A stretch of 39,797 nt of DNA from an uncultured Bacteroidales bacterium (lineage in GTDB: Bacteria; Bacteroidota; Bacteroidia; Bacteroidales; UBA932), in contig CALVDP010000020.1 in the NCBI GenBank assembly GCA_944326315.1, positions 1-39,797 on the forward strand. Reading direction: 5' to 3'. Position numbers and translations under genes: made by a program. The notes below the pieces were generated by a model, which was given only the letters and a program-made list of their open reading frames with translations, was not told the origin of the DNA and searched no databases. Shown here in pieces: positions 7,516 through 39,552 of the stretch (positions within the stretch are counted from its first letter, which is position 1; every line of letters begins with the position of its first letter).

Positions 7516-7553
7516 AAGGGTGACCCGAGAAATCTCAGAGGTCACCCTTAATT
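7516..7553 (+). terminator. Hairpin after tRNA-Leu
   Basis: AAGGGTGACC (7516-7525) and GGTCACCCTT (7540-7549) form a perfect 10-bp stem followed by AATTT. It is the likely terminator of the tRNA transcript, although the T run is short. Confidence 0.6.
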
Positions 7554-7754
7554 TAACGTCAGTTCGACGAATTATTCTGTTCAATATCAGAGATTCCGTC
7601 GAACTGACGTTACGATTTCTTCGAAATCCCTTTCCTTTTTCGTGTCACCCCTCTTAAATTCTCCCCTGCGTAGGGGAGAACTTACGCCGGACTTCGTCCT
7701 CTATAGAGGTAATTCTCTGAAATTCATTTCATTCATTTCATCGAATTCACGTTA
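7554..7754 (+). repeat. 201-bp interspersed palindromic element, copy 1
   Basis: Begins TAACGTCAGTTCGACG and ends with the imperfect inverse (TAACGTGAATTCGATG read from the other end; 14 of the outer 17 bases match). The first 59 bp form a hairpin with a perfect 16-bp stem (7554-7569 with 7597-7612). Further inside are GATTTC/GAAATC, TTCTCCCCT-GCGT-AGGGGAGAA and CCTCTATAGAGG. It has no credible ORF. It reads as identical to copy 2 (18149-18349, inverted). Its structure suggests a non-autonomous mobile element (MITE- or REPIN-like) that may also act as a terminator. Confidence 0.9.
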
Positions 7755-8023
7755 ATTTATTTGTTCCGGTATGGAAATTCGGTGAAGTGTCCATGAGGCT
7801 GGGTCAAAAGTCCCGAAGGGACCGCGACCGGAGGAAGCGATATCCCCCTAACCGAGTGGTAAGCCGAGCGGCATGTCGGAATGTATTCCGATATGTCCGA
7901 GGCGGAACGAGGAAAAGCAATGTAATTGCTTAATAGGGGGTACAGGGGGTTAGGATGGGTCCAGGTTAAACTGAAGTTTTTCCATATCCTCACCTCGGCA
8001 ATTTGTGCAGGCACAATTGCACT
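7755..8023. other. Gene-free stretch with a possible structured RNA
   Basis: No supported gene. It holds several short inverted repeats: GTCCCGAAGGGAC (7810-7822), TCGGAAT/ATTCCGA (7876-7882 with 7885-7891) and AGCAAT-GTA-ATTGCT (7916-7930). CCTAACC (7847-7853) can pair with GGTTAGG (7948-7954) and enclose the last two. This nested arrangement could be a structured RNA or a second repeat family. An 85-codon minus-strand frame here has no recognisable domain and is not called. Confidence 0.4.
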
Positions 8024-9685
8024 CTATTCGTCAATGGTTTCGAAGAAAGACGTTTGAGGGTGACCAAAAGTCACTTTTGAGTCACCCTCAAGTGCCTTTT
8101 CAAGCTGAGTGTCATATCTGAGCCGGACTTTGATACCGGCTTCCTGATAGTAGTACCTTACGGCCAGTTCCTCCTCGATGAACGGTATGATTTCGTCCTT
8201 CTTCAGACGGATGAACTCTTCCTTGCCGATGGCTATGGCCTTGCCAAGCGAATCCAGTTCTGCGGACATGCTTTCTGCCAGACCGTCTGTTTCAAGTTCT
8301 TTCTTCATCTGGTCAAAAAGCGTCTCGGCACTGCTCCTGTAATCGAACTCCTGTGTTTTGGCGAAGCTGATGAAATCTTCGAAATCTTCGTCAGAGAAAT
8401 GGAACTCGTCCAATGCCGGTATCGTGTCATGCTGCTTTGCATATTGTATGGCGTATCTGTCGATGATGCCTCCGAGCACGAGAGAATACACGAGCCTGCT
8501 GTATTCAGGCGCATCTATGTCCACGTCAGGAGTTATTCCGCCTCCGTCACGCACCGTACGTCCCTTGCTGGTCTTGAACTCATGAGTGAGAGAATCCGGT
8601 ATATGCCCCACACTACCGTCATCATTCCTGTGGCTGTAGTCGATGGCCTGCACGCAGCGTCCGCTTGGCGTGTAATATTTGGCCGTAGTCACTTTCAACT
8701 GCCCGTTGTAGACAATAGGACGCACGGTCTGGACCAGCCCTTTGCCGAAGGTCCTTTTGCCCATGATTGTCCCGCGGTCAAGGTCCTGTATGGCCCCCGC
8801 AACGATCTCGGAAGACGATGCAGAGCCGGAATCCACCATTACTATAAGCGGGATTTCAGTATCCACCGGATCGGAAACAGTCCTGTATTCCTTCAGTGAT
8901 TCCGGCGTGTTGCCCTTAGAGGAGACGACAAGCGAACCTTTCGGCACGAAAAGGGATACAATGTTTATCGCTTCGTTCATCAGTCCGCCTCCGTTGCCGC
9001 GCAGGTCGAGCACAAGACGTTTCATTCCCTGCTCCTTCAACTTGAAGTACCCGGCCTTCACTTCCTCGGATACCTTGTCCGTGAATCCGCTCTGCCTTAT
9101 GTATCCTGTGGTGTCATCTATCATCCCCACATATTCCACATCCGGGATATGTATGCGTTCCCTGACTATCGCCACATCGACAGTGTCCCCGGTAAGCCCT
9201 TTCAACACCTTGAAATTCACTGTAGTGCCTGGCTTGCCTTTCATCCTGTCGCTGCTTTCCTTGGCTTCGAGGCCCTTCGTGGTCTGCCCGTCTATCGTGA
9301 TGATTTCGTCCCCGCACCTCAGGCCGTTCTTCCATGCCGGAGAGCCGTAGTAAGGCTCGTTTATTATCACATTGGCATCCTTGTCCTTCAGAATGATAGC
9401 TCCGATGCCCCCGTAAGTCTTTGAAAGCATCATCTGCAGGTCCTCGTTTTCCTCCTCAGGGATATAGATCGTGTACGGATCGAGGTTTTCAAGCATCGCA
9501 TCTATGCCGGCACGCATGATCCTGTCCACAGGCAGGCTGTCCACATAGGACCTGTTCAGTTCCTTCAGCACCGAATTTTCGATTTCCACCCATTGTCCGA
9601 GCTTGAAGCTCTTGCTCTGTCCGTAAGCCTCAAATCCTGAAACCGCAGCCGCCATGACCGCTATCGCAAAAAATATCCTTTTCAT
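8024..9685 (-). CDS. S41 family C-terminal processing peptidase
   Basis: A tail-specific serine protease of the CtpA/Prc type, acting in the periplasm. The 553-residue protein has an N-terminal signal sequence (MKRIFFAIAVMAAAVSG), a PDZ domain (about 80-180, with YGGIGAII and LRCGDEIITIDGQ), and the S41 catalytic region with VDSGSASSSEIVAGA (nucleophile motif near residue 288) and the general-base lysine in GKRTFGKGLVQ. A longer reading from TTG at 9700 is possible, but ATG 9685 starts the signal peptide. A near-perfect palindrome (8054-8091) lies inside the last coding stretch. Substrates are unknown. Confidence 0.92.
   Translation of the reverse strand: MKRIFFAIAVMAAAVSGFEAYGQSKSFKLGQWVEIENSVLKELNRSYVDSLPVDRIMRAGIDAMLENLDPYTIYIPEEENEDLQMMLSKTYGGIGAIILKDKDANVIINEPYYGSPAWKNGLRCGDEIITIDGQTTKGLEAKESSDRMKGKPGTTVNFKVLKGLTGDTVDVAIVRERIHIPDVEYVGMIDDTTGYIRQSGFTDKVSEEVKAGYFKLKEQGMKRLVLDLRGNGGGLMNEAINIVSLFVPKGSLVVSSKGNTPESLKEYRTVSDPVDTEIPLIVMVDSGSASSSEIVAGAIQDLDRGTIMGKRTFGKGLVQTVRPIVYNGQLKVTTAKYYTPSGRCVQAIDYSHRNDDGSVGHIPDSLTHEFKTSKGRTVRDGGGITPDVDIDAPEYSRLVYSLVLGGIIDRYAIQYAKQHDTIPALDEFHFSDEDFEDFISFAKTQEFDYRSSAETLFDQMKKELETDGLAESMSAELDSLGKAIAIGKEEFIRLKKDEIIPFIEEELAVRYYYQEAGIKVRLRYDTQLEKALEGDSKVTFGHPQTSFFETIDE
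8054..8091. repeat. Palindrome inside the 3' end of the S41 gene
   Basis: TTGAGGGTGAC (8054-8064) and GTCACCCTCAA (8081-8091) are perfect inverses, and the interior AAAAGT/ACTTTT continues the symmetry with one bulge. It encodes part of the last 25 residues of the protease. The GGGTGAC/GTCACCC core also forms the tRNA-Leu terminator stem 500 bp away. Confidence 0.8.
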
Positions 9686-9752
9686 CTTCTTTTGTCCCAA
9701 TAATTCCTTTCAGTCAAATTCCTGACCGGCCCCTGCCGTTGCAACAATCATA

Positions 9753-9784
9753 CAAAGATACGCTTTTTGCAGTTCCAATGTCAA
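9753..9784 (-). promoter_or_regulatory. Promoter of the S41 peptidase gene
   Basis: On the minus strand TTG (9782-9784), 21 bp, TATCTTTG (9753-9760). The leader would be about 60 nt. Confidence 0.6.
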
Positions 9785-9823
9785 TTTGTTCCTTAATATT
9801 GTCCCGGTCCGTAAACAAAAATT

Positions 9824-10237
9824 CTAATCTTCCAGGATGCGGACCATTTCGGCAGGCGTGACAACAAATGGTTTTACTGGGAAATGCTTTATATTACCTG
9901 TAACAAGATAAGAATCTTCGACGGAAAGAGCGACTTCGTAGAATACGATGTCTTTCGGATCCGGGAAATCGATATCTGCTGCCGGCGTTCTGTCTATATT
10001 TAATCCATCGGCAATAATGGCTTTGATAACTGTCTCTATCAATGGAAGATCCAGATGGAACTTTGATCTTGATAACACGTTCTTGTATTCTTCAAGGATC
10101 ACGTCATTGAATAGCGGCACAATCCGTTCCTGCACGATTGCACGGAAGACTTTGACAGGATTGGATTCAAGATTACTTGACAAGAGTGCAGAGACAATGA
10201 CATTGGTGTCAATGACGGCAAAAATTTTATCTTTCAT
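9824..10237 (-). CDS. PIN-domain toxin (COG1569-like)
   Basis: A probable ribonuclease toxin. The 137-residue protein begins with the PIN signature KIFAVIDTNVIVSALLS (metal ligand D10) and continues with an acidic helix VILEEYKNVL, PDPKDIVFYEVAL and VTGNIKHFP. These features define the 'putative TA toxin, PIN family' group. ATG 10237 is chosen over the longer reading from 10273 because it starts at the PIN strand and overlaps the antitoxin stop by 11 nt, normal TA coupling. The partner is a DinJ-type antitoxin rather than the VapB/AbrB type usual for PIN toxins. The target RNA is unknown. Confidence 0.85.
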   Translation of the reverse strand: MKDKIFAVIDTNVIVSALLSSNLESNPVKVFRAIVQERIVPLFNDVILEEYKNVLSRSKFHLDLPLIETVIKAIIADGLNIDRTPAADIDFPDPKDIVFYEVALSVEDSYLVTGNIKHFPVKPFVVTPAEMVRILED

Positions 10238-10520
10238 TGCGGGCATTCTGTATCTCTGCATTAATTTCATCAAGTGAAAGGTCCTGCACTCCTGCGGCGG
10301 CAGCCTGTGTCCTCATTTCAAGGAATGCCTCCCATGCTTCATTATTTATCTGATCCCTGCCGGATGCCTTTATCTCGAAGGGAATGCGCCTCTCGCGCAC
10401 GACCGTTTTCATGAATACGGTGATTGCTGCAGTACTTGTGAAGCCGAAATCATCGCATATCATATCGAATTTTTTCTTCAGGGTATCATCCACCCTCATT
10501 GATAATGTTGCTTGTCCCAT
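10227..10520 (-). CDS. RelB/DinJ-type antitoxin
   Basis: A 97-residue protein with a ribbon-helix-helix N-terminus (ATLSMRVDDTLKKKFDMICDD then FTSTAAITVFMKTVV), as in RelB/DinJ antitoxins, and a charged C-terminal tail (about 60-97) that would wrap the toxin. It should neutralise the PIN toxin and repress the operon from the palindrome at 10552-10564. The gene pair lies directly downstream of a truncated ABC exporter gene, which suggests that it arrived with a rearrangement. Confidence 0.88.
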   Translation of the reverse strand: MGQATLSMRVDDTLKKKFDMICDDFGFTSTAAITVFMKTVVRERRIPFEIKASGRDQINNEAWEAFLEMRTQAAAAGVQDLSLDEINAEIQNARNER

Positions 10521-10544
10521 GATGGTCTATTTAAATTGTATGGA

Positions 10545-10575
10545 CAAATATAATACAGTGTATTGATTAATGCAA
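10545..10575 (-). promoter_or_regulatory. Promoter and operator of the DinJ/PIN pair
   Basis: On the minus strand TTG (10573-10575), 20 bp, TATATTTG (10545-10552). Between the boxes lies the perfect inverted repeat AATACA-G-TGTATT (10552-10564). Its position in the promoter spacer is what an autoregulating RHH antitoxin would need. Confidence 0.65.
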
Positions 10576-10638
10576 GACAATGTCCGTATTTGTAACAAAA
10601 GTACATACGATAAAGCGGGCGACAGAATTGTGTTCGGC

Positions 10639-12003
10639 CTATTGAAATCCTCCTATTATATATTGCATCGCCATCATCATACCAAGTGTCATGTCCCCTT
10701 TGATTACGGCACTTGCAGCAAGAAACGAAATGATTATGTTTTTTGTCTGGTCGATGAACGTTCCGCCCACTTCCTGGCTCTGCCCTAATGTCAGGCTTTT
10801 TATGCTTACCTTAAACAATCTTGCCTGTATGCTTTCCCATTCCCACCTCTTTTGTTTTTCGCAGTTGTTCAGCTTTATGTCCTGCATGCCGTTTATCAGC
10901 TGTACGATATTGCTCTGGTTTGCTGATGCTTCCTGGAATCTCATATAGTCCAGCTTGCGTCTCCGTTTCAGGAACAGGACTATCCACAGAATGTAGAAAA
11001 TACTTCCGATAAGGAATACCCCGAATATCCCGATGTCATATCCGGCCATTACTATACTGTATATCAGAAAAGTTATTATGGCTACGGCCATGCTGAGGAG
11101 AGATTCGGTAAGGAATGCCTGCACCCTGTTGTAGTCTTCTATTCTCTGCATGATATCTCCTATCATCTTTGAATCAAAAAATGCTATAGGAAGCCTCATC
11201 AACTTGCAAAGGAAATCGGATATAAGGGATATGCTCACACGTGTGGTCATGTGAAGCATCAGCCAGCTGCGTATGAGATTGTTGCACATCTGCCCTATGA
11301 CAAGTACCAGTTCTGCAACCAGGAGCATCACGATGAACGATATATTACCGGTGCCTATACCTGTATCTACCACTGATTGTGTGATGAACGGCATGATGAG
11401 GCTGATTCCGATTGCAACAAACATTGCAAGCAGTATCTGTACTATATACGACTTGTATGGTCTTAGATACCCTGCCAGATACCGGAAGTTCATCTTTCTG
11501 TCGTCCTCACCTTTTTCTTTGTAGAATGCCGGAGTCGGCTCAAGTATCAGTGCGATACCGTGGGTCTTTGCGGGAGTTACCCCGTTTTTCTCCGTTATAT
11601 CCTGTTCGTCACCGCTACTCTGCAGCCATCCATTCAGAAATGGCTTCTCGTCATATACAAGCAGACCTGATGCCGGATCCGAAACAGATATCTTATAACC
11701 TTTCTTTTGCTTTCTGATGTCGTACACCACAATAAAATGTCTCTGATGCCAGTGAACAATGCATGGAAGCGACAATTGGTCCCGCAGTTGTTCCCAAGTG
11801 AGCCTGACGCCTGCGGTACGAAAACCAATGCTTTCAGCGGCATCGCTGATCCCAAGCAAGGATACACCTTCCCGTGTGATATGGCATCTGTCCCGCAGTG
11901 TGTGCAGACTGTAGCTTTTCCCGTAGAAACGTGCTACAATCCGAAGACAGGTCGGACCACAGTCCATTGCATCAAGCTGTTGGTAATGAGGGAATGAGGA
12001 CAT
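10639..12003 (-). CDS. C39-peptidase ABC exporter, truncated (ATPase domain missing)
   Basis: An exporter of the type that cleaves double-glycine leaders and secretes peptides. Residues 1 to about 150 are a C39 peptidase (QQLDAMDCGPTCLR with catalytic C15, then the His in HWHQRHFIVVYD and Asp in SDPASG). Residues about 170-450 are the ABC transmembrane domain (YLRPYKSYIVQILLAMF and MIGDIMQRIEDYNRVQAFL). The frame ends at MMAMQYIIGGFQ, where intact members continue into about 270 residues of ATPase. No Walker A or signature motif is found downstream, where the DinJ/PIN pair begins. It is therefore unlikely to transport on its own. The 16-bp gap to the upstream metallopeptidase indicates one operon. 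Confidence 0.85.
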   Translation of the reverse strand: MSSFPHYQQLDAMDCGPTCLRIVARFYGKSYSLHTLRDRCHITREGVSLLGISDAAESIGFRTAGVRLTWEQLRDQLSLPCIVHWHQRHFIVVYDIRKQKKGYKISVSDPASGLLVYDEKPFLNGWLQSSGDEQDITEKNGVTPAKTHGIALILEPTPAFYKEKGEDDRKMNFRYLAGYLRPYKSYIVQILLAMFVAIGISLIMPFITQSVVDTGIGTGNISFIVMLLVAELVLVIGQMCNNLIRSWLMLHMTTRVSISLISDFLCKLMRLPIAFFDSKMIGDIMQRIEDYNRVQAFLTESLLSMAVAIITFLIYSIVMAGYDIGIFGVFLIGSIFYILWIVLFLKRRRKLDYMRFQEASANQSNIVQLINGMQDIKLNNCEKQKRWEWESIQARLFKVSIKSLTLGQSQEVGGTFIDQTKNIIISFLAASAVIKGDMTLGMMMAMQYIIGGFQ

Positions 12004-12019
12004 TTTATGTATTATGTGG

Positions 12020-13468
12020 TTATATCCCTATCTTATTACGGATTTTGGCGACGTCCTTGCCGACTATGCTCTTGTCCCAGCCGCAGTTCGTACCTCTGAC
12101 AAGCAGCCGGATGACTTTCTCCAACATGGCTTCATCACCTCCGGACTTCTGTGCGGCCTGATGCAGGTGCCATGGAATGTATTCGTAGTAGAGCCAGCTT
12201 GAAGAGCCTTCGGATGAAAAAGCGGAGTTCGTCTCCATCTCGGACGCTTTCATGGCGGCCTTACGGTCATATCCGTTTTTCTCCAAGTACCGGAACATGC
12301 TTTCAAATCCGTCCTTCCCGGTTGTCAGGGCAGTAAGAGCGGTGGCCGAATACTCGATAAGAGCTTCGCTTACTATAAACCTTTCATACGGTGTCCAGTC
12401 CGGACTATCCTTTTCAGGAACGGAAAAATACAGATGGAGTATCTCATGGGCCGGCATTGCCGTGTGGAAATCAGACTTGTCCATGATTATCAGTCTGTTT
12501 CCCTTGTCAGTATATGCACGTCCCCAGGTCCATGATCTGTCGACCGTGTCCATAACACCGTGAAGAACCTGTTTCGTCACTACCATTTCCAATTTTCCTG
12601 AAGGTACGGTGTCAAGATCTTCCGCCAGCTGTTCGATTTTTTCGATTGTCCTTTTTATAACTGTCTGGGCTGTATCTGTTTCTGTGCTTTTTGCGAGAGG
12701 CATTATTTCGATATTCGTGAGGGATGACCTGGTGGTGTCCACATTTTCCCAGAGCAGATCTATATTCAGGCTTTTCCCTGCATCAAAGGTCTTGTTCAGG
12801 AAAGCAGGTTTGTAATAGAGGAAAAAAGACGGTGGACAATCGGTCGTAGCCGATACTGTCCTGCGGTCAGGGTCGTATTCATTTTCCGCAAGAGCCATGT
12901 CAGAGCGCAGATAAAACAAGGATTCGGGTATGTCGAATGTTATTCTTAGACTGTCCGTCTCGCCTTTCCGGACAAAGACATAGTTCTGGAAATCGGTCAT
13001 TGCATAAAATTGAGGGCATTGATACAATGGCTCGTCATCTTCCATCAAACATGAAGGAGACAGGTAGGAGTATCTTATCAGCGTGTAGTCAGTGTTTCCG
13101 GACTGTTTTCTAAGCGGTGCTACAGACAGCATCGGCATCTCTATTTTTAAGTTCCCGATATCTTTTTCACTGATTTCAACCCATGGAAGAGCAAATATGC
13201 CCATATAGTCTGTAACATAATGGTAATATTCACCTAACTGCATGACTGTCGTATCGGTCAGCAGCTTGTCGGGAATTTTTTCCGTCATGCGGATCTGTAT
13301 TGTCTTGTGGTATGTGTATGTCGGGTCCGGAATGGTGTCATACTTCAATATATAGTCGGAATAGAATGCCTTGACGGTCAGGTCTATCCCATTAAAGTCA
13401 TCAACTTCTGCCGTTGCATTCCAGATGAACGGCAGAAGCAGGAGCATTATTGCAGTTGCATATTTCAT
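12020..13468 (-). CDS. Exported gluzincin-like metallopeptidase
   Basis: A 482-residue protein with a signal peptide (MKYATAIMLLLLPFIWNATA). At residues 341-345 it has HEILH, a HExxH zinc site, followed 22 residues after the second His by SEALIEYSA, a plausible third zinc ligand as in M1-like gluzincins. The first 300 residues look beta-rich and resemble no family I can name. It lies between an outer membrane barrel and a C39 exporter on the same strand, so a role in processing an exported peptide or clearing secreted protein is an inference from context. The exact peptidase family is not assigned. Confidence 0.7.
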   Translation of the reverse strand: MKYATAIMLLLLPFIWNATAEVDDFNGIDLTVKAFYSDYILKYDTIPDPTYTYHKTIQIRMTEKIPDKLLTDTTVMQLGEYYHYVTDYMGIFALPWVEISEKDIGNLKIEMPMLSVAPLRKQSGNTDYTLIRYSYLSPSCLMEDDEPLYQCPQFYAMTDFQNYVFVRKGETDSLRITFDIPESLFYLRSDMALAENEYDPDRRTVSATTDCPPSFFLYYKPAFLNKTFDAGKSLNIDLLWENVDTTRSSLTNIEIMPLAKSTETDTAQTVIKRTIEKIEQLAEDLDTVPSGKLEMVVTKQVLHGVMDTVDRSWTWGRAYTDKGNRLIIMDKSDFHTAMPAHEILHLYFSVPEKDSPDWTPYERFIVSEALIEYSATALTALTTGKDGFESMFRYLEKNGYDRKAAMKASEMETNSAFSSEGSSSWLYYEYIPWHLHQAAQKSGGDEAMLEKVIRLLVRGTNCGWDKSIVGKDVAKIRNKIGI

Positions 13469-13523
13469 GAGGTCAAATGTTTATTGGTTGCCATAAGTTT
13501 TCAGTCAATGATTGCCGGAGGGC

Positions 13524-15629
13524 TTACAGAAGACCGCGCTTGTCGAGGATCTCGTTGTCGTATCTGGTGTTGTCCCTGATTTCCTTCGTCTCCTTGCCTT
13601 TCCCGAATCTGAAGGTCAGACGGAAGATGAGCATATTGTCGTATATGCCTAGATCCAGTGCGTTCCTCTGGAAATAGAAAGGTGTGACGGTTTCGCTTTT
13701 CTGACTTTGGCGCACACCGATATTAAGAGGAATGACATAATCCATCGAAAGCACCAGCCTGTCCTTCAGCAAGTATTTGCCCACTGTCAGATTCCAAAGG
13801 TCAAATCCGTATTCCGAAAAGCCCTGCAGTCCCGGTATACGTGACATGCCCCGCGAATAGCCGAGACTTGAAAGCAGCTTCAGTTTCGGGGAGAAGTATT
13901 CAAGTTCAGATTCTCCCATGAAACCGATTTCGCTGTTGCGGAATCCGCCTCCTGATATTTTCATGAGATTCATCTGCACGGAATTGTTCCATGCCCAGTT
14001 CTTGCTGATTTCCCATTTGTATTCGAGCCCCGTCGTGTACCGGAAATATCCGGCGGTAGTGTATGTGGATATCACATTATTGCCCGACAGGGCATAGTAG
14101 TCGGAAATGTAGTCAGGGGTAAAGGTGAGGTAGTTTATGAACTGGAGATTGTTCCAGAAACTCATCTGTATCAGGAGAGAGTGTGTCAGGGACATAGGCG
14201 GCAGACCGGGATTCCCCTGCGAATAGAGGAACTCACCTGTCTGGTGCAGTGTCGGGTCGAGCTGCTCCTGTACGGGATATGACGGGTCCGCGTTGTAGAC
14301 AGCTGTAAGTCCGAATACAGACTTCGGGAAATAGTTCAGGGTGAGCATCGGAGCCGCATAGAACCGGTCTGCAGCCCCGTCTTTCACGTACCCTGCTGAA
14401 AGTCCGCCTGACAACGCGAGGTCGTCTCTGATGCCCCAGGTGGCGTATGCATACAGGTCGGCTCTTCCCGATATCCTGTCGAAGACCGTGCTGCCTGTCC
14501 CCGTGTCGGAAATCCTGTACCTGTTGTACGTGCCGTTCATGCCGAAATTCAGCGATAGCCTGTCGGAAAAACTGTATGTAAGGTCTATATTCTGGAAAGA
14601 GTAATCCTTGCGGCTGTTCTGGACCGAGTTTTCGAGCACTGTCCCGTCCCGCAGGAATGTGTAAGTCTCCGGTGTGTATATGCCGTTCCAGTTCACGGAA
14701 ATATTCATGGCCAGCCTGTCGGAAAGCATGCCGTTGTATGTCGCGCTGGCTGTCCAGTTGCTTGCGGACGACTGTCTCTGCGAGAATTCATGGAAGGTCG
14801 TCCCGGAGGCTTTTTCCATCATGTACAGGGAGTTGGCGGTATTGGTGCCTTCCCTCGAATAGTTCGCGAATACCGATAGGGTGTGCCTGTCATTGAAGCT
14901 GTACGAGGTACGCAGGTATGCGTTGTGACTTGTGTAACGGTAGCGTTCGGTAGGGAGACCCGCATAATCGGGATTTATGGAATATTCCCTTCCGTCAGGC
15001 ATTCTTCTCTCAGCGGTATTCTCATAGTTCCAGAGAATATCTCCGAATCCGTAGCCTGTATTCATGTCGAAGCGGCCTTTTGTGTATTGGAGAGCAATTC
15101 CCGGCTGCTCGTTGGCGATGGTCCTGCTGTTCTCCGGAGTGATGAACAATGAGTTCCGGACATTCATAAAGATGCCGTCATCCCGTTTCCGCCTGATTTC
15201 GATGACATATCTGATTCCTCTGGAAATGTATTTGCCTTTGGGAGTATGGATGATGCTGATGCTCCTTATCTGTTCCGGGGAAAGTGCCTTGAGTTCCTCC
15301 TTTGATATTTCCACACCGTCAAGGACGAATACTATCGCATCATAGCCGTTCACGGTCAGTCTGTCGGAGATCCCGTCATACTTTATTCCCGGCAGGCGGT
15401 CAAGCAGGGAGTTGATGTCATAGGACTTCAGCCTGTCGGACGGCAGGATGGTATAGACGTTCCTGTCCGCCTGTCTTGTGACTCGGGATTCTATGATTCC
15501 GGCTTCCGCTATCGTGTCTCTCATCACGGACAGGCTGTCCTGCTCCACTGCATACATTTCCTGAGGCAGCATGGATATAAAAGCCAATGCTGCAATGATG
15601 ACGCGCTTGAAATTGACGGGACTTTTCAT
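13524..15629 (-). CDS. TonB-receptor-like outer membrane beta-barrel protein
   Basis: A 701-residue outer membrane protein. A signal sequence (FKRVIIAALAFISMLPQ) precedes a plug-like domain (about 40-150: NVYTILPSDRL, LLDRLPGIKYDG, DGVEISKEELKALSPEQIRSI) and then a long barrel of alternating aromatic strands ending DNMLIFRLTFRFGKGK. No N-terminal carboxypeptidase-like domain is present. It looks like the 'outer membrane beta-barrel family' group (PF14905-like) rather than SusC. It is the first gene of the minus-strand cassette with the metallopeptidase and the truncated C39 exporter, suggesting a peptide uptake or release role. A ligand cannot be inferred. Confidence 0.8.
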   Translation of the reverse strand: MKSPVNFKRVIIAALAFISMLPQEMYAVEQDSLSVMRDTIAEAGIIESRVTRQADRNVYTILPSDRLKSYDINSLLDRLPGIKYDGISDRLTVNGYDAIVFVLDGVEISKEELKALSPEQIRSISIIHTPKGKYISRGIRYVIEIRRKRDDGIFMNVRNSLFITPENSRTIANEQPGIALQYTKGRFDMNTGYGFGDILWNYENTAERRMPDGREYSINPDYAGLPTERYRYTSHNAYLRTSYSFNDRHTLSVFANYSREGTNTANSLYMMEKASGTTFHEFSQRQSSASNWTASATYNGMLSDRLAMNISVNWNGIYTPETYTFLRDGTVLENSVQNSRKDYSFQNIDLTYSFSDRLSLNFGMNGTYNRYRISDTGTGSTVFDRISGRADLYAYATWGIRDDLALSGGLSAGYVKDGAADRFYAAPMLTLNYFPKSVFGLTAVYNADPSYPVQEQLDPTLHQTGEFLYSQGNPGLPPMSLTHSLLIQMSFWNNLQFINYLTFTPDYISDYYALSGNNVISTYTTAGYFRYTTGLEYKWEISKNWAWNNSVQMNLMKISGGGFRNSEIGFMGESELEYFSPKLKLLSSLGYSRGMSRIPGLQGFSEYGFDLWNLTVGKYLLKDRLVLSMDYVIPLNIGVRQSQKSETVTPFYFQRNALDLGIYDNMLIFRLTFRFGKGKETKEIRDNTRYDNEILDKRGLL

Positions 15630-15827
15630 TTTGAATCAGTCAAGTCATAAAATTCCTTTAAAGTTAAATGGAAAAAGTTTAACATGTGTTGTTTTTAAGA
15701 GAAATTTTCATTGGTTAAATAATTAATTTTAAGGTATTTGTGCTTTTGTTGAATTTTAAGGCAAACCAAAAGTTTAACATATGGGTAAATTTTATGCTTC
15801 CGCCCGCCTCAAAAAGCGAATGTTCCC

Positions 15828-15866
15828 GTCAGAAATGTTTGTCAGAAATGTTTGTCAGAAATGTTT
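15828..15866 (+). repeat. Three perfect 13-bp direct repeats
   Basis: GTCAGAAATGTTT occurs at 15828-15840, 15841-15853 and 15854-15866 with no spacing. The last copy runs into the -33 position of the GH77 promoter, so this is probably an activator-binding array. Confidence 0.9.
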
Positions 15867-15895
15867 CGCCGGATACGGTATTAATTCTAAATTTG
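15864..15895 (+). promoter_or_regulatory. Promoter of the GH77 gene
   Basis: TTTC (15864-15867), 20 bp, TAAATTTG (15888-15895). The imperfect -33 box overlapped by direct repeats fits an activator-dependent promoter. Transcription would begin near 15902, after the upstream in-frame ATG at 15781. Confidence 0.6.
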
Positions 15896-15912
15896 CAGAA
15901 CAAGGATTTGCT

Positions 15913-18057
15913 ATGAAACTGATAACTGAAGTCGAATATTTTACCGAATGGGGTGAAGAGATCTTTCTGAGAGCGAATGGCTGTCTGTACAGAATGGATT
16001 ATCATGGAGACGGGAAATGGCATGCCGTGATAGATCGCCTTAAGCCGGGGCAGACATTAGAATACAGGTACGAGCTTCATTCAGGGGGCTTGTGCAGACG
16101 CACCGAATGGGATCCGCACATCGTGGCCATGCCTGAAGGGAATTCCCGCAAGCCCGTGCAAGTCACGGACAAATGGAATGATGTGCCCCAGGGTCTGCCT
16201 TTCCGCTCCGCACCTTTTGCCGACGGGGTGTTCCGGACAGTGCCTGGCAGGCTGTGGAAAGCCGCAGGTACGGCAATACCGGTGTTCTCCCTTCGTTCAG
16301 AAAGCGGATTCGGCATAGGCGAGTTCCATGACCTGAAACTTCTCGTGGACTGGGCAGCCTTGACCGGACAGAAAATCATACAGCTGCTTCCGGTCAATGA
16401 CACGACCATGACAGGTACATGGGAGGATTCGTATCCTTATAACGCCTGTTCGAGTTTCGCGCTTCATCCGCAGTTCATCCATCTTCCGGATGTCGGGGTG
16501 GCGGAGGATGAGGCTTATACAAGTCTCCGTGACGAGCTCAATGCCCTTCCGGAAGTGGACTACGAACGAGTGAACAGGGAAAAGCAGAGGCTTCTCAGGG
16601 AGGCATTCAGGACAAACGGGGCGAAAACGCTCAGGACCAGGGCCTGCAGGTCTTTTGTGGAGGAAAACAGGGACTGGCTCCTGCCTTACGCCATGTTCTG
16701 TGTGTTGAGGGACGCTTTCGGGACGGCAGATTTCTCCAGGTGGAAAAGTCCCGCTGGGCGGAAAACCGGAGAACGGACCGAAATTCAAGGTGACTTCACT
16801 GACTATGACAGAGTCAAGGCGGAGGCTTTCGCGGCAGGACACAAGAAGGAAATTGACTATCACTTCTATGTGCAGTATCATCTGCATGTCCAGCTGTCGG
16901 AAGCAAGGAATTATGCACGCGGCAAGGGCATTGTATTCAAGGGAGACCTGCCTATCGGGGTGAGCCGGACAAGCGCTGATGCATGGACTGGAAAGAAGCT
17001 TTTCAATATGGATTCACAGGCCGGCGCCCCGCCCGACGCATTTTCCGCAGACGGGCAGAACTGGGGCTTCCCTACGTACAACTGGGATGAAATGGCCAGG
17101 GACGGATACGCATGGTGGAAGTCGCGTCTGAAACACATGTCTCTCTATTTCGACGTGTTCAGAATAGACCACATCCTGGGCTTTTTCCGTATATGGGAGA
17201 TACCGCTGTCTGAAAAGAGCGGACTGATGGGGCATTTCAATCCTGCCCTGCCGTATTCCGAGGGCGAGCTGGCATCTTTGGGCTTCGATGTCCATGCTGC
17301 CGGACATGACGGGAACGATGTGCTTTTTGTAGAAGACCCGCGCAGAAAAGGCTGGTGGCATCCGAGGATAGCCGCACAGTTCACTTCCGCATATGCCGGA
17401 CTCGATCCAGGCCTCAGGCAGTCGTTTGACAGGCTTTATGACGATTTCTTCTATCGCAGACACAATGCTTTCTGGAAGGAATCCGCCATGCGCAAGCTCC
17501 CGCCGCTTCTTTCCGCCACGGGAATGCTTGCATGCGGGGAGGACCTGGGCATGATCCCGGACTGTGTGTCAGAGGTGATGAGGGAGTATCAGATACTTTC
17601 TCTTGAGATACAGCGGATGCCAAAGTCCGTGCATGAGGTCTTTGCTGATCCGGCGCATTATCCGTACTGCTCTGTCTGCACCACTTCTACGCATGACATG
17701 AATCCGATAAGAGCCTGGTGGGCGGAAGACCGTAAGGTGACGGATGATTTCTGGCACATGGTGATGCACAGAGAGGGAGAAGCTCCTGCGGATTGCGGGC
17801 CGTGGATATGCCGGGAGATTGTGCGGCTTCATCTGGAGTCGTCTTCAATGCTCGTTATACTTCCGCTTCAGGACTGGCTGTCTCTTGACGGTGATCTGAG
17901 AGCCCAGGACCCGACGAAGGAGAGGATAAACGTGCCTGCGATACCTCGGTATTACTGGAAATACAGGATGCATCTGACGCTGGAAACGCTTATCGCCAGC
18001 GATGCATTCAATTCTTCCCTACGGGAAATGATTTCGGATTCCGGCAGGTGCCAATGA
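15913..18057 (+). CDS. malQ: 4-alpha-glucanotransferase (GH77)
   Basis: Amylomaltase: transfers alpha-1,4-glucan segments between maltodextrins in the cytoplasm. The 714-residue protein has an N-terminal starch-binding-like segment (about 1-90) and a GH77 barrel with PPDAFSADGQNWGFPTYNW, the nucleophile Asp in DVFRIDHILGFFR, the acid/base Glu in ACGEDLGMIPD and the third Asp in STHDMNPIRAWW. Bacteroidota homologues often carry two CBM20 domains and reach about 890 residues; this one appears to keep only one. An upstream in-frame ATG (15781) would translate through three 13-bp DNA repeats and the promoter, so ATG 15913 is chosen. It pairs with the GH13 gene downstream for maltodextrin use. Confidence 0.92.
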   Translation: MKLITEVEYFTEWGEEIFLRANGCLYRMDYHGDGKWHAVIDRLKPGQTLEYRYELHSGGLCRRTEWDPHIVAMPEGNSRKPVQVTDKWNDVPQGLPFRSAPFADGVFRTVPGRLWKAAGTAIPVFSLRSESGFGIGEFHDLKLLVDWAALTGQKIIQLLPVNDTTMTGTWEDSYPYNACSSFALHPQFIHLPDVGVAEDEAYTSLRDELNALPEVDYERVNREKQRLLREAFRTNGAKTLRTRACRSFVEENRDWLLPYAMFCVLRDAFGTADFSRWKSPAGRKTGERTEIQGDFTDYDRVKAEAFAAGHKKEIDYHFYVQYHLHVQLSEARNYARGKGIVFKGDLPIGVSRTSADAWTGKKLFNMDSQAGAPPDAFSADGQNWGFPTYNWDEMARDGYAWWKSRLKHMSLYFDVFRIDHILGFFRIWEIPLSEKSGLMGHFNPALPYSEGELASLGFDVHAAGHDGNDVLFVEDPRRKGWWHPRIAAQFTSAYAGLDPGLRQSFDRLYDDFFYRRHNAFWKESAMRKLPPLLSATGMLACGEDLGMIPDCVSEVMREYQILSLEIQRMPKSVHEVFADPAHYPYCSVCTTSTHDMNPIRAWWAEDRKVTDDFWHMVMHREGEAPADCGPWICREIVRLHLESSSMLVILPLQDWLSLDGDLRAQDPTKERINVPAIPRYYWKYRMHLTLETLIASDAFNSSLREMISDSGRCQ

Positions 18058-18399
18058 GTTTAGTTCCGTAAATGACTGAAGCATTCATCCCGAAAGCAAC
18101 GCAGCAGACTGCCTGTTATTACCCTGTTATTTCGCCTGATTATTACATTAACGTGAATTCGATGAAATGAATGAAATGAATTTCAGAGAATTACCTCTAT
18201 AGAGGACGAAGTCCGGCGTAAGTTCTCCCCTACGCAGGGGAGAATTTAAGAGGGGTGACACGAAAAAGGAAAGGGATTTCGAAGAAATCGTAACGTCAGT
18301 TCGACGGAATCTCTGATATTGAACAGAATAATTCGTCGAACTGACGTTACATTATTACGCCGCCGACAGTAAGATATTGTGACAAGATAATCCGCTTTG
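18058..18399. other. GH77-GH13 intergenic region
   Basis: No gene. Bases 18149-18349 are copy 2 of the 201-bp element. The remaining 91 bp before it and 50 bp after it show no convincing promoter or hairpin. Confidence 0.7.
18149..18349 (-). repeat. 201-bp interspersed palindromic element, copy 2 (inverted)
   Basis: Reverse complement of copy 1, read as identical over all 201 bases. Its hairpin end faces the GH13 gene. ATTATTAC occurs just outside both ends (two bases from the left end, one base from the right), a possible but unproven target duplication. Confidence 0.9.
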
Positions 18400-20301
18400 A
18401 TGACAATGACAGATTTTGTTTCCGGCAACGTCAATCATGAATTTGATCCGGATACGGTGCCTGATGCCGGCGGGCGCGTATCCAGAGTCGAGCCGCTTTC
18501 ATGGTGGACAGGGATGAAGACCCCTTTGCAGCTCATGGTTTATGGCGAAAACATCTCAGGGGCAGCCGTCCGTATCGAGGGTGGCCGGGGTGTGAAGGTC
18601 TCCCGGATCTATCAGGCCGACAGCCCGGACTATCTGTTCATCGATGTGGAGATTGCGCCGGATGCCGCTCCAGGTACATATTATATCGTATTCGTCAGCG
18701 GTACAGAGACCTTCAGGTACGCGTACCGGATAAACGCGCGGGCCGCGGGCTCGTCCGCCAGAAAGAGCTTCACGACAGCGGACATGATATATCTCATCAT
18801 GCCTGACCGTTTTGCGAACGGAGACTCGTCCAACGATGCCACTGATGACACTGTCGAAAAACCGGACAGGGATGCTCCTTTCGGACGTCATGGCGGTGAT
18901 ATACAGGGTATTGTTGACCATCTCGGCTATATTGCCGACCTTGGCGCGACTGCGGTATGGTGCACGCCGATGCTTCTTGACAACGAACCGGAGGGCTCCT
19001 ATCACGGCTACGCCTGTGCCGACCATTACCGTATAGACCCGCGTTTCGGCTCCAATGAACTGTACCGGGAATTTGTGTCCAAGGCTCATGAATATGGACT
19101 TAAAGTGTTGATGGATATAGTGACGAACCACTGCGGGACAGCTCACTGGTGGATGAAGGACCTTCCGTTCAAGGATTGGATTCATACGTTCCCTGAATAT
19201 ACCGGGACAAATGTCTGTCTGTCGGCAGGTATGGATTCCAATGCGTCGGAGTACGACCGTAATCTCCAGGAAAGCGGCTGGTTCGTCCCTTCCATGCCGG
19301 ACATGAATTTGGACAATCCTTTCGTGCTGCAGTATTTCCGGCAGTGGGCCGTGTGGTGGATAGAGTATGCCGGACTTGACGGTTTCAGGGTGGACACATA
19401 TCCGTACAATGAGAAAGGCCCTATGAGCGGATGGTGCGCCGCCATACTGGAAGAATACCCGGATTTCAATATCGTCGGCGAATGCTGGACCTCCTCAATC
19501 CCGCAGCTGGCATACTGGCAGGGAGGGAATGCGAACAGGGACGGTTTTGACTCGCATCTGCCGTCGATAATGGATTTCCCTCTTCAGGAAGCCATCTGCA
19601 ATGCTCTCCCGACGGATTCTCATGCATGGGGCAAGGGCATGTCCAGAGTGTATGACTGTATCTCCCATGATTTCGTTTACCATGATCTGTCCCGGATGAT
19701 GATATTTCTCGGCAATCATGATATTGACCGTATCGGGGATGTCCTGAAGAAAAATCCGGACAGGCACAGGATAGCCCTGGCCATGTTGGCAACGATGAGG
19801 GGGATTCCACAGCTGTTCTACGGAGACGAGATGATGTTCGTCTCGAAAGACCGTTCGCAGGGGCATGGCGGTCTTCGGGTGGATTTCCCGGGAGGCTGGC
19901 AGGGTGACAGCATGGACCTGTTTTCGGCAGAAGGCAGGGCCTCTGCGGTGGTGAATACGGACGGGAAGCCTGTCTCTGAAGGATTTGCGGCAGCAATGCA
20001 TGATTATACGCGCAAGCTTTTCCAGTGGAGGAAAGGCAAGAAAGTGATCCACGACGGTAAGACGCTCCATTTCCTGTCACGGGACAATACCTACGCCTAT
20101 TTCCGCTATGATGATACTGACGCCGTGTTCGTATTCATCAACAACTCCCGTGGCCGGAAGCGCGTTCCATGGTCTCATTATGCGGAAATTGCCGGCAGTC
20201 TGCATGGCGGACGCAATGTCCTGACCGGAGACCCAGCCGAGGTGTCGGATTCCACCGTCGTCGGGCCGCGCCAGGTGCTCATTGTCGAGTACAGCCGATA
20301 A
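18400..20301 (+). CDS. GH13 alpha-amylase / cyclomaltodextrinase-like hydrolase
   Basis: A 633-residue glycoside hydrolase acting on alpha-1,4-glucans. An N-terminal beta domain (RVEPLSWWTGMKTPLQLMVYG, as in Bacteroides SusA-type neopullulanases) is followed by the catalytic barrel: DIVTNHCG, nucleophile Asp in GFRVDTYPYN, acid/base Glu in NIVGECW, and FLGNHDIDRIG. SusA-type enzymes normally have a signal peptide; here the frame begins MTMTDFVSGNVNHEF with no hydrophobic segment, and stop codons lie upstream in frame, so it is predicted cytoplasmic. The start is uncertain (ATG 18400 or 18406, no clear Shine-Dalgarno). The 201-bp element lies only 50 bp upstream. Confidence 0.9.
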   Translation: MTMTDFVSGNVNHEFDPDTVPDAGGRVSRVEPLSWWTGMKTPLQLMVYGENISGAAVRIEGGRGVKVSRIYQADSPDYLFIDVEIAPDAAPGTYYIVFVSGTETFRYAYRINARAAGSSARKSFTTADMIYLIMPDRFANGDSSNDATDDTVEKPDRDAPFGRHGGDIQGIVDHLGYIADLGATAVWCTPMLLDNEPEGSYHGYACADHYRIDPRFGSNELYREFVSKAHEYGLKVLMDIVTNHCGTAHWWMKDLPFKDWIHTFPEYTGTNVCLSAGMDSNASEYDRNLQESGWFVPSMPDMNLDNPFVLQYFRQWAVWWIEYAGLDGFRVDTYPYNEKGPMSGWCAAILEEYPDFNIVGECWTSSIPQLAYWQGGNANRDGFDSHLPSIMDFPLQEAICNALPTDSHAWGKGMSRVYDCISHDFVYHDLSRMMIFLGNHDIDRIGDVLKKNPDRHRIALAMLATMRGIPQLFYGDEMMFVSKDRSQGHGGLRVDFPGGWQGDSMDLFSAEGRASAVVNTDGKPVSEGFAAAMHDYTRKLFQWRKGKKVIHDGKTLHFLSRDNTYAYFRYDDTDAVFVFINNSRGRKRVPWSHYAEIAGSLHGGRNVLTGDPAEVSDSTVVGPRQVLIVEYSR

Positions 20302-20407
20302 TTTTCTCCGGAACCGGATCCGGCTCCATATCGGGATATCTCCGAAAGCGTACCGCATCCGTGCGCATGTAAAGCATGTTGAAGCATGTCCACATGTCAG
20401 ATGAATA

Positions 20408-20440
20408 TTTGGAGAATTGGAAATGATTTTTATAACTTTG
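20408..20440 (+). promoter_or_regulatory. Promoter of rdgB-recO
   Basis: TTTG (20408-20411), 21 bp, TAACTTTG (20433-20440). The predicted start site near 20446 leaves only about 7 nt before ATG 20453, which favours ATG 20471 as the rdgB start. Confidence 0.7.
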
Positions 20441-20470
20441 CGGCGGATTTAGATGAAATACAAAGCAGTT

Positions 20471-21106
20471 ATGAAAATGGTTTTTGCAACGGGCAATAGC
20501 GGAAAACTGCGTGAGGCATCAGAGATTTTAGGCAAGGGATTTGAGCTCGTTACCCCTGCACAGATGGGAATCAATGAAGAGATTCCAGAGACAGGCACGA
20601 CCCTGAGGGCCAATTCGCAGCAGAAAGCGGACTATATCTGGCAGCATTGCCATACGGATTGTTTCGCTGATGATACAGGGCTTGAGGTCGATGTGCTGGG
20701 CGGTGCCCCGGGCGTCCATACGGCAAGATATGCCGGTGAGGACAAGGATTTCGGGAAGAACATGGACAAACTTCTCGACGAACTTGCCAGAAAGGAGATG
20801 GAGGCGTCGCTTATGAGGTCGATTGGGATTACTCCAAAGAAAAATCTTCGCCGGGCGCGTTTCAAGAGCGTCGTCACCCTCATTCTCGGAGGTGAAAGGC
20901 ATTTTTTCACCGGTGTGCTTGAGGGCAGGATAGCCAGATGCCGGTCAGGAAACGGCGGTTTCGGGTATGACCCCGTGTTTGTCGCAGACGAGTATCCGGA
21001 GACTACGCTGGCCGGAATTTCAGAGGAACAGAAGAATTCAATATCCCACAGAGGCAAGGCGTTGAGGGCCATGGCCGCATTTCTGAAGGACGGAGCTGAA
21101 GCATGA
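20471..21106 (+). CDS. rdgB: XTP/dITP diphosphatase (RdgB/HAM1)
   Basis: Removes non-canonical purine nucleotides (XTP, ITP) from the pool. The 211-residue protein begins MKMVFATGNSGKLREA, the family's phosphate-binding motif, and continues with FADDTGLEVDVLGGAPGVHTARYAG and NGGFGYDPVF. An ATG at 20453 would add six residues but leaves almost no leader. Its last codon overlaps recO (ATGA), pairing nucleotide-pool cleaning with DNA repair. Confidence 0.93.
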   Translation: MKMVFATGNSGKLREASEILGKGFELVTPAQMGINEEIPETGTTLRANSQQKADYIWQHCHTDCFADDTGLEVDVLGGAPGVHTARYAGEDKDFGKNMDKLLDELARKEMEASLMRSIGITPKKNLRRARFKSVVTLILGGERHFFTGVLEGRIARCRSGNGGFGYDPVFVADEYPETTLAGISEEQKNSISHRGKALRAMAAFLKDGAEA

Positions 21107-21753
21107 ACAGTTCCGAATTCATCCTGCTGCACACTACAAGGTTCGGGGAGAACTCCATGATTCTCCATACCCTGTCCAGGGAATATGGCAGGAAGGGGCT
21201 TTTTGTCAGGAACATATCGCGCAGGTCTGTAACATCGGTATTTTTCCCTCTTGCGATACTGGAAGCGGACATAACAGACAATTCAAGGTCGAAATTGTCC
21301 AATGCCAGGAATTTCGCACTGGTATATCCGCTGAACGGAATCCGGAACAACCTGAGCAAAAGCGCGATTGCCATGTTCATAAGCGAAGTCCTGTACCGGG
21401 TGATCCGGGACGGGATGCAGGATGATGCCCTTTATGACATGTGTGTGAAGGATATTATGCTGCTGGATGCGATGGAGGCTGACTTCAGCAATTTCCAGCT
21501 GTACTTCCTGCTGGAATTCATCATCGCCCTGGGATTCAGCCCGGAGCCAAGGGACCTGCAGCCGTTCATGGGCGGGAATATGCCCCTGGTGTCGGAGTTC
21601 TCCGGCTTGCCGTTTTCGGAAGCCATGCTGGTGCCGATGTCCGGCGAACTCCGCAACGATATTGCGGAGAAGCTTCTGAAATATATTGAATACCATACGG
21701 AATCGGCTGTGAATGTCAATTCGTTGAAAGTCCTCAGGGAGCTTTTCAAGTGA
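21103..21753 (+). CDS. recO: DNA repair protein RecO
   Basis: Loads RecA at gaps with RecR in the RecFOR pathway. The 216-residue protein has the N-terminal OB fold (ILLHTTRFGENSMILHTLSREYGRKGLFVRN) and the helical C-terminal part (LYFLLEFIIALGFSP then PFSEAMLVP and HTESAVNVNSLKVLRELF). The zinc-finger cysteines of some RecO proteins are absent, as in most Bacteroidota versions. ATGA overlap with rdgB. Copy 3 of the 201-bp element begins 18 bp after the stop. Confidence 0.88.
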   Translation: MNSSEFILLHTTRFGENSMILHTLSREYGRKGLFVRNISRRSVTSVFFPLAILEADITDNSRSKLSNARNFALVYPLNGIRNNLSKSAIAMFISEVLYRVIRDGMQDDALYDMCVKDIMLLDAMEADFSNFQLYFLLEFIIALGFSPEPRDLQPFMGGNMPLVSEFSGLPFSEAMLVPMSGELRNDIAEKLLKYIEYHTESAVNVNSLKVLRELFK

Positions 21754-21770
21754 GTGCTGATATTCATATT

Positions 21771-21971
21771 TAACGTCAGTTCGACGAATTATTCTGTTCA
21801 ATATCAGAGATTCCGTCGAACTGACGTTACGATTTCTTCGAAATCCCTTTCCTTTTTCGTGTCACCCCTCTTAAATTCTCCCCTGCGTAGGGGAGAACTT
21901 ACGCCGGACTTCGTCCTCTATAGAGGTAATTCTATGAAATTCATTCCATTCATTTCATCGAATTCACGTTA
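21771..21971 (+). repeat. 201-bp interspersed palindromic element, copy 3
   Basis: Same orientation and length as copy 1, with two base differences, both near the right end. It fills the gap between converging recO and the U32 gene and ends one base before the U32 stop codon, so its hairpins are the only candidate terminators for either gene. Confidence 0.9.
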
Positions 21972-21972
21972 T

Positions 21973-23223
21973 TTATTCTTCGACCCACAGATAGACTTTG
22001 TCCGAGCGACGTAATTTCCCGGTAACGGACGTGTCTACCGGTATGGAGCAGTATGTCCCCTTGCCGGCTTCCTCCACAGGCTTCAGGTCTACCCTTATCT
22101 CCTTGACCTTGAGCTCCGCCACACCTGTCGAGGCACCGATGACAAGGATGTCGTCCCCGACCTTGAGCGGGGCGGATTCCACCAATATCTCGGCGACTCC
22201 GATTTTGGCGAACCAGTTGGTCACTTTCCCGCAGTAGATTTTTCGCCTGGTGGCCTTGCTGCCATAGACTTCGCTCCATTCCCCGAGCCTTGCCCCCTGG
22301 TAATAGCCGTCCCAGAAGCCACGGTTGAATACTTCCGCAAGTTCTTTTTTCAGCGCTCCGGCCAGTTCCGGAGTGTATTTGCCGTCACACACCGCATCGG
22401 CTGCCCGGCGGTAACAGGACGCTGTCCTTTTCACATATTCCGCGGACCTTGCCCTGCCTTCGATCTTGAACACGGACACTCCGGCGTCTATGATCTTGTC
22501 CATGAATTCTATGGTGCAGAGATCCTTCGGGGACATGATGTATTTGTTGTCCACCACGAGTTGATTCCCGGTCTCGAGGTCTGTCACTTCATATCCGCGC
22601 CTGCAAATCTGGTAGCATGAGCCTCTGTTGGCCGACGCCCCGTATTCATGCAGGCTGAGATAGCATTTGCCGGAAATGGCCATGCACAAAGCCCCGTGGG
22701 CGAACATCTCTATGCCGACCTTGCGTCCGGACGGGCCCTTGATGTCTTCGGAATCTATTATCGACCTGATTTCCTTTACCTGATGCAGGTTCAGTTCTCG
22801 TGCAAGCACGATGACATCCGCATATTGCGCATAGAAACGCAGCGCTTCGGCATTCGATATGCTGAGCTGGGTCGAAATGTGTACCTCGATCCCGATCCGG
22901 CGTGCATACATTATGGCAGCCATGTCTGAAGCTATGACAGCTGTGATACCTGCATCTTTCGCGGCATCGAGGGTCCTGCGCATGTCTTCCAGATCTTCCT
23001 GGTACAGGACGATGTTCAGCGTCAGGTAGGATCTGACCCCGTTCTCCCTGCATATCCTGCAGATTTCCGGAAGATCCTCCATCTTGAAATTGTTTGCGGA
23101 ATGTGACCGCATGTTCAGTCTCTCGACACCGAAGTAGACGGAATCCGCCCCGCCTTGGATAGCTGCCTGCAGACATTCGAAATTGCCGGCAGGCGCCATT
23201 ATTTCCAGATCCTTGTGATTCAT
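21973..23223 (-). CDS. U32 family protein (RNA hydroxylation type)
   Basis: A 416-residue protein named as a peptidase but related to TrhP/RlhA, which use prephenate to hydroxylate tRNA or rRNA. Visible motifs are IMAPAGNFECLQAAIQGGAD and VYFGVERLNMRS at the N-terminus, the family region EMFAHGALCMAISGKCYLS, and cysteines in RGSCYQICRRGY that could bind an iron-sulfur cluster. The C-terminal segment forms a small beta domain ending KVYLWVEE. The ATG overlaps the stop of the polyprenyl synthase gene by 4 nt. Which RNA it modifies cannot be told from sequence. Confidence 0.85.
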   Translation of the reverse strand: MNHKDLEIMAPAGNFECLQAAIQGGADSVYFGVERLNMRSHSANNFKMEDLPEICRICRENGVRSYLTLNIVLYQEDLEDMRRTLDAAKDAGITAVIASDMAAIMYARRIGIEVHISTQLSISNAEALRFYAQYADVIVLARELNLHQVKEIRSIIDSEDIKGPSGRKVGIEMFAHGALCMAISGKCYLSLHEYGASANRGSCYQICRRGYEVTDLETGNQLVVDNKYIMSPKDLCTIEFMDKIIDAGVSVFKIEGRARSAEYVKRTASCYRRAADAVCDGKYTPELAGALKKELAEVFNRGFWDGYYQGARLGEWSEVYGSKATRRKIYCGKVTNWFAKIGVAEILVESAPLKVGDDILVIGASTGVAELKVKEIRVDLKPVEEAGKGTYCSIPVDTSVTGKLRRSDKVYLWVEE

Positions 23224-24256: not shown

Positions 24257-24287
24257 CAAATATACTCAGAAGCCGAGAGCAATGCAA
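24257..24287 (-). promoter_or_regulatory. Promoter of the polyprenyl synthase-U32 operon, in array unit 1
   Basis: On the minus strand TTG (24285-24287), 20 bp, TATATTTG (24257-24264). Both boxes belong to the tandem repeat unit, so units 2 and 4 carry the same pair further upstream. Confidence 0.65.
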
Positions 24288-24693
24288 GTTTACTTGCAAT
24301 TGCCGAGGCGCCACTGTATAAATGACGAAGTCAAATATACTCAGAAGCCGAGAGCAATGCAAATGAACTTGTTCAATTTGCATTGCCGAGGCGCAGCAGG
24401 ATATGTGGCGGAGCCAAATATCGAAGAAGCCGAGAGCAATGCAAGTTTACTTGCAATTGCCGAGGTGCCACTGTATAAATGACGAAGTCAAATATACTCA
24501 GAAGCCGAGAGCAATGCAAACAAACTTGTTTGATTTGCATTGCCGAGGCGCAGCAGGATATGTGGCCGCAGGCCAAATATCGAAGAAGCCGAGAGCATAC
24601 TTGGAGGCGCAACAGGATATGTGGCGGAGCCAAATATCGAAGAAGCCGAGAGCATTCTTGGCGGTTTTCAACCGGGGCGCAGCAGGATATGTG
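24257..24693 (-). repeat. Six-unit tandem array of promoter-like box plus hairpin
   Basis: Units begin CAAATAT at 24257, 24332, 24415, 24489, 24574 and 24631 (75, 83, 74, 85, 57 and 63 bp). Each starts CAAATAT(ACTC/CGA)AGAAGCCGAGAGCA. Units 1-4 then hold a hairpin GCAATGCAA...TTGCA(A)TTGC. Units 1 and 3 end CACTGTATAAATGACGAAGT and units 2 and 4-6 end in CAGCAGGATATGTG-type sequence, so 1+2 and 3+4 form a higher-order repeat of about 158 bp. Unit 5 has lost the hairpin and in unit 6 it is replaced. On the minus strand units 1, 2 and 4 present TATATTTG with TTG 20 bp upstream. Confidence 0.9.
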
Positions 24694-39486: not shown

Positions 39487-39519
39487 TTTGTGTAATTCAG
39501 TAATTTATTATTACATTTG
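39487..39519 (+). promoter_or_regulatory. Promoter of the DUF3853 gene
   Basis: TTTG (39487-39490), 21 bp, TACATTTG (39512-39519). The -7 box is the left arm of the 38-bp palindrome, so any protein bound there would block polymerase. Confidence 0.6.
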
Positions 39520-39547
39520 TGTCCATAATTATGGACACAAATGTAAT
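39510..39547. repeat. Perfect 38-bp palindrome, likely operator
   Basis: Bases 39510-39528 (ATTACATTTGTGTCCATAA) are exactly complementary to 39529-39547. It spans the -7 box, the predicted start site and ends 5 bp before the ATG of the DUF3853 gene. It could be an operator or an RNA hairpin hiding the ribosome site. Confidence 0.85.
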
Positions 39548-39552
39548 GTAAT

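Follow-up and report, generated by a model that had tools for sequence, protein, structure and literature searches.

The window analysed here is a stretch of 39,797 nucleotides from an uncultured Bacteroidales bacterium of the UBA932 lineage (assembly GCA_944326315.1, contig CALVDP010000020.1, positions 1 to 39,797 of the forward strand). Sequence comparison within the window reveals three near-identical copies of a repeat, whose coordinates are collected in Table 1. Copy 1 has a tRNA-Leu gene before it and an S41-peptidase ORF that faces it with its 3' end, copy 2 separates the stop of a GH77 gene from the start of the next gene (alpha-amylase family), and copy 3 is flanked by the 3' ends of two converging genes, one recO-like and the other encoding a U32 peptidase. 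The first-pass annotation had placed all copies at gene ends, which is only partly right, given the gene start on one side of copy 2. It had also described the first two copies as identical and the third as carrying two differences; over the 199 positions, copies 1 and 2 indeed show 0 differences from each other, and copy 3 shows two from either. The length of 201 bp given there is that of the 199-bp unit plus an outermost T and A, both part of the duplicated target. This mobile unit starts with AACGTCAGTTCGACG, ends with CATCGAATTCACGTT, and has no gene inside it. The window contains two further repeats of other kinds: direct repeats in tandem, 142 and 51 nt long, where a polyprenyl-synthetase ORF ends (24268-24654), and an inverted repeat with two 32-nt arms, no spacer, and 81% complementarity (39497-39560).

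Table 1. Positions of the three copies of the 199-bp element in the window, with their target-site duplications and left-end hairpins.
Feature	Position	Strand	Basis or remark
Copy 1, 199-bp element	7555..7753	+	identical to copy 2
Copy 1, left target-site duplication AATTT	7550..7554	.	flank comparison
Copy 1, right target-site duplication AATTT	7754..7758	.	flank comparison
Copy 1, left-end hairpin (terminal repeat and inner inverted copy)	7555..7611	+	motif matches, folding
Copy 2, element inverted	18150..18348	-	sequence comparison
Copy 2, target-site duplication by left end, AATGT (element orientation)	18349..18353	.	
Copy 2, target-site duplication by right end, AATGT (element orientation)	18145..18149	.	
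Copy 2, left-end hairpin	18292..18348	-	motif matches
Copy 3, two differences from copies 1 and 2	21772..21970	+	sequence comparison
Copy 3, left target-site duplication ATTT	21768..21771	.	flank comparison
Copy 3, right target-site duplication ATTT	21971..21974	.	flank comparison
Copy 3, left-end hairpin	21772..21828	+	motif matches

The ends of the element are as first annotated: the terminal inverted repeats pair at 14 of 17 bases, and the left end, over 57-59 nt, forms a hairpin in which the terminal repeat pairs with its own inner inverted copy. Compared with dinucleotide shuffles, the whole element folds far better than expected, with a z-score of -8.0 as DNA and of about -7.0 as RNA on either strand. 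A 16-mer searched with up to 3 mismatches has 9 matches in the window, where 0.18 are expected, and a 15-mer end motif searched with up to 1 mismatch has 164 matches genome-wide, compared with 0 for the reversed control pattern. These two counts exclude chance as the origin of the motif.

The flanks carry the signature of insertion. Among the complete copies of the genome with usable flanks, 47 of 53 are bordered by a direct duplication that is 4 bp or longer, whereas random re-pairing of left and right flanks (2000 trials) gave on average 5.3 copies with a duplication and never more than 13. The 47 duplications are 91% A+T and have a modal length of 5 bp (23 of 5 bp, 14 of 4 bp, 8 of 6 bp, and 2 of 7 bp). 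Seven of the 54 complete copies lack a duplication of at least 4 bp, one of the seven being at a contig end. The site of copy 3 was compared with 27 loci in relatives, of which 12 with only one matched flank were set aside; at all 15 of the loci with both flanking genes matched, the element is absent, and 8 to 232 bases separate the flank matches (9 of these sites were aligned and all 15 were checked). Terminal-repeat-like matches (up to 3 mismatches) do occur at 12 of the 15 empty loci, and they correspond to a conserved coding stretch of recO that is also present in the window's own recO. For copy 2, the 15 genomes searched gave no readable site: the two flanking genes have their matches on separate contigs or at distances of thousands of bases, or a single one is listed. 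The first-pass annotation had held that its reading would fall if no strain had an empty site; empty sites of copy 3 were found, between species rather than between strains. Together, the target-site duplications and the empty sites indicate that the copies were inserted.

The assembly to which the window belongs comprises 2,423,204 bases in 103 contigs and is 95.6% complete. With 40 of the 142 first-look candidates scored, BLAST gave at least 74 matches to the element in this genome, counting partial and reverse-arm ones, and a search for the oriented left hairpin with up to 3 mismatches gave 76. From the fetched neighbourhoods, 74 left ends were parsed, 54 of them with a detectable right end. 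Of these 54 complete copies, 35 are exactly 199 bp long, with a median pairwise difference of 2.0%, and the remainder range from 144 to 537 bp; members of other lengths have the ends in common while their centres differ. Copies are spread over many contigs, which disposes of the local duplication, in the form of a single genome-wide cluster, that had been put forward beforehand as the explanation that would defeat the mobile reading. Thirteen contig ends fall 68-76 bases inside a copy.

Some arrangements within this genome deserve mention in their own right. Longer copies (L161, L163, L164, L166, and others) have the same two ends and other palindromic modules in the centre, which by eye partly resemble the window at about 7780-7950. 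At four loci (L009, L010, L018, and L172), an older right end stands directly before the copy with the duplicated target as a spacer, as though one target had served for two insertions. A different insertion sequence (IS), with the outer bases ACTAGTGTCCCG / ACTACTGTCCCG, appears to lie within the loop of the left hairpin of one copy, and the assembly appears to break there (L195 and L206, at the ends of contigs C7 and C12 of genome G000, and L213, at the start of C29).

The 199-bp form is also found in four other genomes (G348, G390, G346, and G325). In G348, the copy on contig C15 matches window copies 1 and 2 at 199 of 199 positions and has its own 5-bp duplication, although the amylase-family gene on that contig is only 73% identical to that of the window; the copy on contig C4 has two differences, and the GH77 match on C4 is likewise 73% identical. 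Compared with copy 1, there are two differences in G390, three in G346, and eleven in G325. Two of the six 199-bp copies in these genomes (L279 and L306) lack a 4-bp duplication. G348 also contains longer-form copies of about 82-86% identity, with two at 95-96% (20 of 155 candidates scored). In L099, a copy cut by a contig end, 142 of 142 positions agree with the consensus. In viral contigs, no exact match was found for the left hairpin or for the right end of the related IS described below. An assembly chimera is an unlikely source of the identity between species, because a diverged gene lies on the same contig and the copy has a matching duplication. The simplest reading is that the 199-bp form has spread horizontally, and since some other species of the genus have it in almost the same form, the element probably moves between species. 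A perfectly conserved copy amid genes that differ by about one quarter makes the movement of tiny gene-less elements across species directly testable.

A likely source of the element was reached from right-type ends in other species, which led first to a gene end and then to insertion sequences. In G142, the IS at locus L243 is 1056 bp long, carries a mismatch-free terminal repeat at each end, and is bordered by AATTT duplications; its 310-aa protein reaches 249.8 bits with the NCBIfam model of the IS982 transposase, whose cut-off is 130, and matches Pfam DDE_Tnp_1_3. In G289, the IS at L250 is 1028 bp long with AAATT duplications. Among the ten IS loci (L243-L252), only two combine both exact ends with a duplication of 5 bp or more; exact ends and no duplication are seen in L244, L245, L247, and L251, and the remaining four are divergent, cut, or without an end. 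The ends of the 199-bp element were compared with those of six ISs, the three closest being L243, L244, and L245: in these, its left end matches the IS right end at 20 of 21 positions, and its right end matches the IS left end at 18-19 of 21. In the other three, agreement is poorer or the polarity is swapped (15-19 of 21). For the remaining 21-mers of L243, the match to the left end of the element never exceeds 13 positions.

Relatives of the IS982 transposase (E <= 0.001) occur in 33 of the 400 sampled genomes of the genus, many of them as fragments. In the window's own assembly, searches with the protein, with PF01609, and with the conserved sequence of the IS left end found none, the PF01609 control being detected in 9 of 14 genomes; nor was a transposase recognised, by eye and in ORF lists, inside family copies of this genome downstream of unpaired ends. 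Multi-copy ISs are easily lost from draft assemblies of this kind, and this, together with the contigs that break off 68-76 bases into a copy, makes the absence from the assembly a weak negative. Among the other genomes with the 199-bp form, G348, G390, and G325 have no relative at E <= 0.001, and G346 has one short fragment. G052, which contains MITEs, has an IS982-type right end at the very end of a contig (L222), similar to the right end of L252, and no listed transposase relative despite it. Truncated IS982 remnants, in which the right end and the last transposase codons stand beside unrelated sequence, were seen in G022 (L229) and G039 (L230).

Several features expected of a bacterial MITE were found here: a short gene-less unit, terminal inverted repeats, target-site duplications, and dispersed copies with empty sites. 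The unit has defined ends, its copies are near-identical, and those ends match the ends of IS982 elements. The repeat is therefore very probably an IS982-derived MITE moved in trans by an IS982 transposase, a reading of sequence data that rests on the duplications, the empty sites, and the match with ISs that encode such a transposase and make 5-bp duplications. In outline, the transposase, supplied in trans, would recognise both ends of the element and mobilise the 199-bp unit, and insertion into AT-rich DNA, mostly between genes, would duplicate about 5 bp of the target. We infer the enzyme from the ends and duplications that the element shares with the ISs, none having been found in the window's own assembly. 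The proposal of the first-pass annotation, a short gene-less MITE that spread recently with a transposase acting in trans, is supported by the terminal repeats, the duplications, the near-identical dispersed copies, the empty sites in relatives, and the IS982 ISs of the genus with matching ends. This reading would explain the prominent repeat that breaks the assembly and name the enzyme likely to mobilise it.

Two explanations without an IS982 transposase have to be set against this one. The same annotation had considered REPIN/RAYT logic, in which a REPIN or related palindromic repeat is moved by a RAYT-type (Y1) transposase. REPIN/RAYT systems consist of short palindromic repeats in many copies that are moved in trans, and the element resembles them in its palindromic short ends, its many copies, and its mostly intergenic position. 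To our knowledge, REPINs make no target-site duplications, whereas nearly all of the copies with usable flanks have them, and the ends are those of IS982, a DDE-type IS. An origin of the REPIN kind was rejected on the duplications, and on both counts it is extremely improbable. An RNA element with a conserved regulatory or transcription-terminating role, maintained by selection with no transposon involved, would account for the strong folding, the near-identity of the copies, and their mostly intergenic position. However, insertion is evident from the duplications and the empty sites, and the only Rfam matches in the window are three tRNAs. Nor does the suggestion that the copies could serve as terminators find support in the sequence: a scan for consensus terminators (a G+C-rich stem followed by a T run, loops of 3-8 only) found 0 around copies 1 and 3, the two copies scanned. 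Covariation was assessed in 52 distinct left hairpins chosen out of 82, once those with an apparently reversed reading, 15 of 58 nt and 15 of 57 nt, had been left out; a double change that keeps the pairing occurs at only 2 of the 23 stem pairs, which gives little sign of selection on the hairpin as a structure. An RNA element of this sort is very improbable.

Another possibility accepts the IS982-derived MITE and adds a function to it, namely that the element has been co-opted to serve as a promoter-like or leader cassette which, with its left end placed immediately ahead of gene starts, influences the expression of the gene that follows. Position and orientation were analysed, on mechanical ORF calls, for 45 copies of the window's genome and 40 of other genomes, all with duplications. 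Of these 85 copies, 83 occupy gaps between ORFs or sit no more than 200 bases from an ORF end, and two are further inside ORFs. Where both neighbouring genes are on the same strand, transcription tends to run from the right to the left end of the element, in 14 of 18 pairs in the window's genome (14:4, p = 0.031), in 13 of 17 in the others (13:4, p = 0.049), and in 27 of 35 when pooled (p = 0.002); an earlier count for the window's genome gave 15 of 18. Gene starts face the left end in 48 cases and the right end in 26, a difference that is significant when pooled (p = 0.014) but not in either group (p = 0.07 and 0.13). Because the ORF calls are mechanical and orientation was counted three ways, this modest bias is a lead rather than a finding, and an insertion preference or the loss of the other orientation would explain it equally well. 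One promoter-like match lies inside copy 3 and none around copy 1, in a scan for sigma-70 sites that differ in kind from those of the Bacteroidota. Co-option as a leader cassette is, on this evidence, rather unlikely. A broader version, equally doubtful, is that of a genus-wide IS982-derived MITE family with doubled palindromic ends and exchangeable centres, which spreads between species and, inserted in one orientation upstream of genes, acts as a portable leader or insulator; if this were true, gene expression would be rewired in many Bacteroidales at once.

As to known systems, a search made mostly without subscription journals found no literature on transposable elements, IS982, or inverted repeats in Cryptobacteroides, the probable genus of this bacterium. 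Among the closest relations of the IS982-derived MITE described here are the IS982 ISs of the genus (L243, L250, and their relatives), which have the same terminal repeat, AACGTGARTTCGAYG, and, when intact, 5-bp AT-rich duplications. These ISs differ from it in their length of about 1.03-1.06 kb, in their transposase gene, and in that no inner inverted copy of the terminal repeat was seen at their ends; the inner half of each end hairpin of the MITE has no counterpart at the IS ends examined. Beyond the genus, a close precedent comes from Cardinium, which also belongs to the Bacteroidota. There, MITECca01 is an element of about 240 bp that derives from ISCca4 (IS982 family); its 169 copies lie for the most part in intergenic DNA and within other mobile elements, and its inverted repeats are called palindromic (PMC9769881). 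The element of the window resembles MITECca01 in being gene-less, multi-copy, and mostly intergenic, with palindromic inverted repeats and with ends in common with an IS982-family IS, and it differs in the ends themselves and in the parent IS. A further difference lies in distribution: the same source describes MITECca01 from a single Cardinium lineage whose genome has 7 intact parents (PMC9769881), whereas related forms of the present element are found in several species, and the window's assembly yielded no parent. The element is of the same kind as MITECca01, with different ends and a different parent, in several species of one genus, and it adds to the Cardinium precedent an IS982-derived MITE family that extends over several species.
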